This document shows positions 57,368 through 58,497 of a stretch of DNA of 64,000 bases, one piece after another; the first letter of the stretch is position 1, and each line of letters begins with the position of its first letter. The stretch lies in the NCBI RefSeq assembly GCF_008932115.1, contig NZ_CP044543.1:806001-870000 (forward strand), read 5' to 3'. Both the position numbers and the translations under genes were made by a program. The stretch is from Bradyrhizobium betae. GTDB taxonomy: Bacteria; Pseudomonadota; Alphaproteobacteria; Rhizobiales; Xanthobacteraceae. The notes beneath the pieces were generated by a model. That model did not search any database, was not told where the DNA came from, and saw only the letters and a list, made by a program, of their open reading frames with translations.

Positions 57368-57382
57368 CGACTGTGTTCGAAG

Positions 57383-58315
57383 TCAAGCGTTTTGCCATGG
57401 TCTATTGTCTCTGATGATGGCGTTGAGGGTGATGAGAAGCTTCCGGGCGACTGCCACCAGAGCAACCATCTTCGGCTTTCCGGCGCTGAGGAGGCGCTGG
57501 TAGAAAGTCTTGAGGGCGAGGTTGCAGCGGCTCGCCACCAAGGCGGCCATGTGGAGGACTGTGCGAACGCTGGCTCGGCCGCCGCCGATCATGCTCTTGC
57601 CTCGCCAGCGGCCTGATTGCCGGGTGTAAGGCGCAAGGCCGGCGAGGCTGGCGATTTCCCGACGGCTCAACCGGCCAAGTTCAGGCAGCTCGGCGAGCAG
57701 AGTTCTGGCGACGATGTTTCCTATCCCAGGCACCGAGGCGAGAAGATCCTCCTTGGCGCGCCAGACCGGCGAGCCACGAACCATGGTCTCGATGTCTCGG
57801 TCGATGGCATCGAGCTCCTTCTGCAGCATGGCGATGTGACGCTGCAGACCTTTGCGGATCCGGACATTGCTTGCCCGTTTCTCACGCTGGCCTTCCGCGG
57901 TCTTCATCTCGATGATCTGCCGGCGGCGACTGACCATTTCGGCCAGCAGGCGCGCTTCCTGGTCAGGCAGCTCGCGCGGCTCCGGCCGGAGCGCATCCGC
58001 GAAGTGAGCAATCACGGCAGCGTCGATCGGATCGGTCTTCGCCCGTTTGCCGGCCGCCTGGGCGAAGTTGCGGATTTGGGCAGGATTGACCACCGCCAGC
58101 GGGATTGAAGCGCCGGCAACGGCCGCAGCCACAATGGTTTCGAAACCTCCGGTCGCCTCCACCGCGACCAAAGTGGGTTTCAGCTCTAACAGCCGTTCGA
58201 CGAGGCTCTCGAGCCCTTTGCCGTCTCGCGTGACAGCGAACATTTCTCCGCTCGGACGTACGTGAACGTCCAGGCGGTCCTTGGAGACATCGATTCCCAC
58301 GAATGACAATTCCAT
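57383..58315 (-). CDS. IS110-family transposase (DEDD recombinase)
   Basis: 310 residues from the ATG at 58315 behind GGAGGGG; a longer open frame upstream belongs to the non-coding end. The N-terminal RuvC-like DEDD set is D9 (VGIDVSKD), E53 (AVEATGG), D95 and D98 (KTDPIDA). The C-terminal Tnp part has [42 protein letters not shown] and the catalytic serine motif GRASVR (Ser249). It excises and inserts the element with the help of the bridge RNA encoded in the upstream end. Length and motifs are complete, with no frameshift. Confidence 0.94.
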
Positions 58316-58318
58316 CGG

Positions 58319-58497
58319 CACCCCTCCTTGCGCAACCGGGCTCGCCAGGCGGCCCACGCGACTGTTCGGGTTCAACGGACTTGCAGATGGGGAGCCGAGC
58401 TGAGGGACGGGCTTTGCGGCCCTAGAATGAGACGGTCTCCCATCTGCAGCCGAACGGCCAAGCCTAGATCGCCGACCGGTCTTTGGCGAGTTACAAG
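58319..58497 (-). ncRNA. Predicted IS110 bridge RNA
   Basis: Non-coding end upstream of the transposase. An RNA read on the minus strand folds into a stem GCAGATGGGAG (58447-58437) with CTCCCCATCTGC (58394-58383). Its internal loop has, on one side, TCATTCT (58430-58424), which pairs with the bottom strand of target TCATCCT with one G-U. A GGGC/GCCC hairpin follows, and on the other side is GTCCCTCAG (58408-58400), complementary to target CTGAGGGGC with one G-U. A second part contains ACAGTCGC (58365-58358), equal to the element's right end ACAGTCG-C. This fits the target-binding and donor-binding loops of bridge RNA. Confidence 0.75.

Follow-up and report, generated by a model that had tools for sequence, protein, structure and literature searches.

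An IS110-group insertion sequence in Bradyrhizobium betae with a predicted bridge RNA whose guides match its insertion site and its own ends

An IS110-group element lies in a dispersed palindromic repeat

The analysis of a 64,000-nucleotide stretch of the Bradyrhizobium betae genome (the window, numbered from its first base) reveals an insertion sequence (IS) of the IS110 group at positions 57368..58497, which, like all of its features described below, is read from the minus strand. The element is 1130 base pairs (bp) long including one CT core dinucleotide, and carries a transposase gene (57383..58315) and, on the leader side of that gene, a predicted bridge RNA gene (58323..58496). Sequence comparison establishes its ends, the core shared by its two junctions, four guides in the leader, the coevolution of these guides with their partners in relatives, and a covarying RNA structure, and we conclude with high confidence that the element moves by bridge-RNA-guided recombination. 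The original prediction for this locus, that an IS110 element carries bridge-RNA guides matching its own insertion site, is supported by the guides, by their coevolution and by an RNA model, expression of the RNA and activity of the element being inferred.

The ends were derived from five near-identical copies with different flanks in the 7.4-Mb genome (two contigs). Each copy is 1130 bp long in transposase orientation; copies 1, 2, and 4 are identical, copy 3 differs by one base, and copy 5 differs by four. All five are flanked by TCATC on one side and GAGG on the other, with a CT core at either junction (by this comparison, 58496..58497 on the left and 57366..57367 on the right of the window copy), and because their outer flanks differ, they represent five independent insertions. 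The left end of the element forms the right donor half (TGTAA, 58491..58495) and its right end the left donor half (ACAGTCG, 57368..57374). The left target half, CGTCATC, occupies 58498..58504, and the right target half together with the rest of the palindromic repeat occupies 57305..57365 (an approximate limit, from direct reading and from matches of the repeat across the genome). Rejoined in transposase orientation, the empty site of the window copy reads CGTCATC-CT-GAGGG; the ends had been predicted exactly, as the five copies with the same core confirm.

The repeat at the insertion site is palindromic by direct reading and dispersed across the genome, with 92 exact empty TCATCCTGAGG sites, all on contig 1, and none for a reversed control pattern. 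Two outcomes named beforehand as fatal to the original prediction, copies at unrelated targets and a palindrome absent in intact form elsewhere, were thus not observed, the core TCATC-CT-GAGG being shared by 5/5 own-genome copies. None of the 92 empty sites falls on contig 2 (~269 kb), where about three would be expected by length. About 130 bp from the target, CATCACCCTGAGGT (57226-57239, plus strand) matches it imperfectly in inverted orientation; the target and this partner are the two arms of a composite repeat, of which only the first contains the insertion. A tyrosine transposase is a common companion of repetitive extragenic palindromic (REP) repeats, without strictly defining them. A search for the Pfam family Y1_Tnp, the family of these REP-associated transposases, gave no match in the own genome and matches in 5 of 14 control genomes.

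The transposase (recombinase) gene encodes 310 amino acids plus a stop codon, and its product matches the Pfam families DEDD_Tnp_IS110 and Transposase_20, both above the curated cut-off. A sequence search of the PDB (expectation value E up to 1e-3) returned two relatives of solved structure, IS621 (E = 1.2e-37) and ISCro4 (E = 3.3e-38). Passages of PMC11208158 give the catalytic set of IS621 as D11, E60, D102, D105, and S241; residues D9, E53, D95, D98, and S234 of the window protein align with this set (counted on the printed alignment, with a chain numbering offset of 2) and do not vary when the window protein is aligned with seven relatives. The closest named relatives include Bradyrhizobium (73%). 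From the coordinates, the non-coding ends measure 182 bp upstream of the transposase and 15 bp downstream of its stop codon, and the element thus has the layout of the IS110 group, with a long non-coding end upstream and a short one downstream. Assignment to the IS1111 group was rejected, as that group needs its RNA-bearing long end downstream of the transposase.

The leader carries guides for the target and for the donor

Guides were numbered according to the IS621 scheme, as given in passages of PMC11208158. The left target guide TCTCATTCT (58424..58432) pairs with the left target half, at nine positions (two of them G-U) with CCTCATCCT of copies 4 and 5 and at eight positions with CGTCATCCT of copies 1-3. 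The right target guide CCCTCAG (58400..58406) forms seven pairs with CTGAGGG (copies 1, 4, and 5) and six with CTGAGGT (copies 2 and 3). The pairing score of the own target, 14 of 16, is reached by none of 127,974 14-mers of the window; with a free register, 10 of 3000 random CT-core sites fit the leader as well as the own target does, so that this match alone is only moderately improbable. We therefore judge the comparative evidence from relatives, given in the next section, to be far stronger than the target match of the single element.

The left donor guide ACAGTCGC (58358..58365) is identical to the own right end with the core C added and occupies the same eight positions as in IS621; this segment and the two target guides are present as originally predicted. 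The right donor guide TTGCGCAAG (TT-GC-G-CAAG, 58327..58335) is discontiguous and lies in the same register as ATTTGCAAG of IS621. Its TT pairs with donor positions 13-14, its G stands opposite T12, and its CAAG pairs with CTTG, the middle GC being predicted to flip out. When this register was fixed beforehand from IS621, 0 of 3000 random sites fitted the leader as well as the own donor does. The right donor guide had originally been described as not convincingly found, with only CAAG pairing; that statement is corrected, as a right donor guide lies at 58327-58335 and covaries with the donor. A second CAAG occurs at 58380-58383, outside the donor loop, and the CAAG first described could be either of the two. 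The second was rejected as the right donor guide because it precedes the left donor guide on the 5' side; the position that corresponds to IS621, and that covaries, is 58327-58335. Two short putative handshake guides complete the leader, CT in the target loop (58398..58399), whose C is complementary to donor position 7, and GA in the donor loop (58325..58326), which by the IS621 scheme would be complementary to target positions 7 and 6.

Guides, targets, and donor ends change together in relatives

Relative loci were collected by genome searches over genus (146 genomes), family (296), and class (385), sets that overlap, to which were added 80 loci kept of 166 from a contig search and loci taken by place. 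A transposase was located in 159 loci (own copies included), and 122 of these are at least 54% identical to the window transposase; the 37 loci below 54% were left out of guide parsing. The parser was anchored on AC..[TC]CGC for the left donor guide, AC[AG][GA][TC]CGCT for the right end, TTGTA[AT] for the left end, and CAAG for the right donor guide. After the failure of 25 of the 122 (truncated contigs, missing anchors) and removal of nine duplicates from the 97 parsed loci, 88 insertions remained, including the five own-genome copies, with 50 distinct target loops and 19 right guides. Because the anchors select in advance for near-standard ends and for CAAG, donor coevolution can be read only from the unconstrained letters of these patterns, and the donor counts cover parsable elements only; target guides outside the core underwent no preselection by the parser. 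An apparent shift of the left guide by one base in L160, L168, L172, and a few others was counted unshifted.

Over the 50 distinct target loops, and outside the core, the right guide matches its own target at 4.6 of 5 positions (shuffled mean 2.2, maximum 3.0) and the left guide at 4.7 of 7 with G-U counted as half (shuffled mean 3.2, maximum 3.8), and 0 of 10,000 guide-target shuffles reached the observed match on either side. This observation is further strengthened by taking one row per right guide, where the match over the 19 guides is 4.5 of 5 against 2.1 in shuffles (again 0 of 10,000). As the shuffles ignore relatedness, the matches are not independent events, and we regard the occurrence of many different guides, each with its own target, as the stronger statement. 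Watson-Crick pairing of the right guide with its own target is complete (7/7) in 59 of the 88 insertions and covers at least 6 of 7 positions in 84, which between them include 18 of the 19 right guide sequences. By position, t10-t14 pair in 86-100% (36-54% when shuffled) and t4-t6 form Watson-Crick pairs in 70-92% (37-42% when shuffled), with an intermediate signal at t3. The first position of each handshake guide is complementary in 46 of the 50 distinct target loops; partner bases hardly vary here, and for the target-loop handshake (C opposite donor G) the partner is invariant, which makes this signal weak. In the Pseudolabrys metagenome-assembled genome (MAG) element L059/L144, which is possibly decaying, the left target guide ends in GA and not CT, so that both core positions are mispaired.

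The donor side displays a similar agreement. The left donor guide is identical to the own right end in 86 of the 88 insertions, and where the donor type shifts from ACAGTCG to ACGGTCG (4) or ACAGCCG (3), the guide follows. The first base of the right donor guide corresponds to donor position 14 in 88/88 without exception (T with A in 77, A with T in 11). Three of the elements with donor ACGGTCG (L180 and L182 from two Reyranella MAGs, L193 from an alphaproteobacterial MAG) have right guides TGCTGAG or TCCTGAG and adjoin CATCCTTCGAGACG-like repeats, a separate lineage of donor and target.

Palindromic targets extend beyond the own genome. Among the 80 of 88 clade targets with enough flank, 58 fold such that at least five of the twelve core-flanking bases are paired downstream, a count made without a matched control, and for 44 of the 80, no more than one of 40 mononucleotide shuffles is more stable than the target. 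From this folding, different guides therefore aim at different palindromic repeats (GAGG types, CTCTCCC types, and others). Passages of earlier papers report natural reprogramming (PMC11187229), target motifs binned by guide (PMC11208160), and, since 2006, insertion of IS110 elements into REP repeats (PMC1525189).

The own-genome sites also provide a natural reading of the seventh base of the right guide. Where G at t14 completes the pairing, three sites are occupied and two are empty, versus two occupied and 90 empty where G is missing (one-sided Fisher P = 6.6e-4), in a post hoc test that was chosen after 30 of the empty sites had been inspected. The preference is not universal: in genome G223, where the right guide is ACCTCAG, t14 is C in three of the five copies, A in one, and T in one, and hence matches only once. 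Pairing at t2 was not significantly enriched in filled over empty own-genome sites (P = 0.25).

The predicted bridge RNA has a covarying structure

An RNA model was trained on leaders representing 46 of the 50 distinct target loops, leaving out the own element as well as L162, L200, and L210, which were omitted because parser limits had been set wrongly; no own-genome sequence entered it. In the window, the best match of the model is the leader at 58323-58496 (137.6 bits, E = 6.1e-31), and the next one scores 10 bits, so that the covariance-model search proposed as a check in the original prediction came out positive. On 53 further loci, the model matches 22 of 28 distant ones (33-42% transposase identity) and 22 of 23 unparsed closer ones at E below 1e-3, together with both loci on viral contigs, whose transposases are 38% and 48% identical to that of the window. 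IS621 itself gives a weak but aligned match (20.6 bits, E = 1.4e-4 in 3278 bases). An Rfam search of 56800-59100 (E up to 1) found no bridge RNA family, and its two matches were far below gathering scores.

The structure was examined over 48 leaders, namely the 46 above, the window, and L087 (entered without its first nine bases). For a structure specified by us, 94.4% of 1294 pair cells in this set are standard, and two-sided change is seen in 18 of the 27 pairs; on none of five measures is the observed value attained by a shuffle (0 of 500), and slid controls attain at most 49.9% of cells. Most of the covariation signal is carried by the target-binding loop (58382..58448), which consists of an outer stem, the left guide, an apical hairpin (58409..58422), and the right guide, and which on its own folds better than shuffles (z -3.03) and has two-sided changes in 14 of the 15 outer-stem pairs. 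The donor loop is closed by a stem of ACCC (58368..58371) with GGGT (58320..58323), the latter just before the start codon; its innermost three pairs are kept in 48/48 sequences (a single sequence has a two-sided change at one of these pairs), and its outermost pair fails in 18/48. A tandem pair of RNA matches in L211 was dropped as a probable scaffold artefact (N at the join). The element L151 (1367-1493) of a Microvirga MAG lacks the target-guide part of the loop and keeps the donor loop; targeting may have been lost naturally, or the assembly may have collapsed here.

Proposed mechanism and alternative explanations

From these features, we infer a cycle of circle formation, transcription, RNA-protein binding, and recombination activity. 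Excision would yield a circle that joins both ends (ACAGTCG-CT-TGTAA) and thereby creates a promoter, for which TTGACT (57381..57386), overlapping the stop codon, is a possible -35 box that the circle junction would place upstream of the RNA. TTGAC occurs at identical spacing from the core in 82 of the 88 insertions; the -10 box of the putative promoter is left unassigned because the same bases are the donor. The leader-derived RNA, of about 170 nucleotides, would bind the transposase, its first loop pairing with the palindromic repeat, whose bottom strand would be bound by the left guide and whose top strand by the right guide, and its second loop with the joined ends of the element itself, and strand exchange would take place at the CT core.

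Several observations weigh against this interpretation or narrow its basis. Of the 122 relatives at 54% identity or more, 25 escaped parsing, and the anchors preselect rows with near-standard ends. Under looser criteria, guide and end are both standard in 15 of these 25; in L209 and L217 the right end is one base off the standard ACAGTCGC guide (that of L217 being read by eye), L214 has an odd end and no guide that could be found, and the remaining rows have one or both parts off the contig or unmatched by the pattern. Among parsed rows, L215 and L216 each have one mismatch in the left donor guide, and four of the 88 rows fall short of six right-target-guide pairs out of seven (L086, L162, L194, and L198, in the last because of undetermined bases). 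Pairing at left-guide positions t1-t2 hardly exceeds that in shuffles, if at all, and pairing at t9 is equal under shuffling. Lastly, folding is no better than in shuffles for the whole leader (z 0.25) or for the donor loop alone (z 0.34), which has fewer varying pairs than the target loop.

Guided insertion was also weighed against other explanations of the same locus. The transposase might read the palindromic repeat by DNA shape or protein contacts, with guide matches arising by chance, an idea favored by the palindromic nature of all own-genome targets, by the 58 of 80 clade targets that fold across the core, and by the only moderate rarity of the own target match under a free register (10/3000). 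It is extremely unlikely, however, given that guides and targets change together over 50 distinct target loops with 0 of 10,000 shuffles as good, that donor guides change along with donor ends, and that 22 of 80 targets miss the fold criterion. We give as little weight to a spread of the copies with the repeats by homologous recombination, without guided insertion: although the element is located in a dispersed repeat, the five copies have different outer flanks and a base-exact junction, and 92 copies of the site are empty.

Two further alternatives concern the role of the leader. It could be a structured 5' untranslated region that controls only translation of the transposase, a control shown for ISPpu9 in passages of PMC8450116, and guides nothing, in keeping with a donor loop that covers the Shine-Dalgarno region; translational control and guiding are nevertheless compatible, and a purely regulatory leader is highly unlikely. 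Somewhat less remote, yet still improbable, is a working guide in the form of a shorter processed RNA made up mainly of the target segments, the view associated with seekRNA, for which Siddiquee and colleagues report, in passages of PMC11187229, a seekRNA plus a long form that completely includes it. Against this, the same leader also conserves donor guides, which change in step with the donor ends, and both loops are part of the conserved structure. Recombination guided by a bridge RNA with both loops thus remains our interpretation.

The donor guide overlaps the translation signals of the transposase

The right donor guide ends 11 nucleotides upstream of the start codon; the sequence AAGGAGG begins within the guide, covers the handshake bases and extends beyond them. 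In the 88 relatives, the five bases from the AAG of the guide onwards are AAGGA (73), AAGGT (8), AAGGC (5), or AAGCA (2, in L200 and L210, where the parser erred); 82 of the 88 have a possible in-frame start codon 5-11 nucleotides further on. The right donor guide of IS621 likewise ends 12 nucleotides before the annotated ATG. This layout of donor loop and Shine-Dalgarno sequence is kept in most relatives and in IS621, and because these are alike, the overlap is a property of the group and not of this element.

Because the Shine-Dalgarno sequence of the transposase is overlapped by the right donor guide, its handshake bases, and the closing stem, the donor loop might act as a two-way switch, in which the junction transcript is either translated or is folded and bound by the transposase as guide RNA. 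We put this forward tentatively and consider it doubtful; if true, the formation of guide complexes would lead the recombinase to stop its own synthesis. The idea is partly foreshadowed by ISPpu9, where, according to passages of PMC8450116, a leader structure likely buries the ribosome site and mutants raise translation. The terms ribosome, Shine, and start codon are absent from the main text of PMC11208160, and among the matches listed for the bridge RNA literature, no mention of Shine-Dalgarno was found.

Relation to known systems

The window element is an IS621-type bridge RNA element that is unusually completely decoded, its mechanism having already been described (2024). With IS621 of Escherichia coli, as presented in passages of PMC11208160 and PMC11208158, it shares a leader-encoded RNA, two guide loops, a CT core, an eight-base left donor guide, extragenic palindromes as insertion sites, and, by alignment, the same catalytic residues; the discontiguous right donor guide is likewise comparable, the IS621 version having been read in locus L220. 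The two differ in guides and repeat, in the right target guide, which pairs over four positions in wild-type IS621 according to these passages and over seven here, and in the left-guide signal, which in the window clade lies mainly over t3-t6. Passages of PMC1525189 describe ISPpu9, ISPpu10, ISPa11, and ISRm19 as IS110 elements inserted specifically in REP repeats, as here, although the repeats and hosts are others; these passages of the 2006 paper do not deal with guide RNAs, and Bradyrhizobium has 0 occurrences in its main text. The seekRNAs of IS1111 and IS110 types resemble the predicted RNA in coming from a non-coding region with segments that match both target strands, and differ in the emphasis on a short RNA and, for the IS1111 types, in a downstream long non-coding region and subterminal inverted repeats (passages of PMC11187229).

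Such findings extend the rules known from IS621, the unusual discontiguous right donor guide among them, to an alphaproteobacterial clade whose target and donor guides have undergone natural compensatory changes, and they indicate from natural variation which guide positions matter. With five occupied and 92 unoccupied copies of a single site, the genome, probably that of a soil rhizobium, would moreover be useful for specificity tests. At the level of the transposase, ISMex17, ISMno7, and unnamed IS110 elements on alphaproteobacterial plasmids are about 56-61% identical among the matches listed. More widely, 1098 plasmid records contain a related IS110 transposase at E of 1e-60 or better, 625 of them from Klebsiella and 353 from Escherichia, with 1096 of the 1098 under 60% identity.
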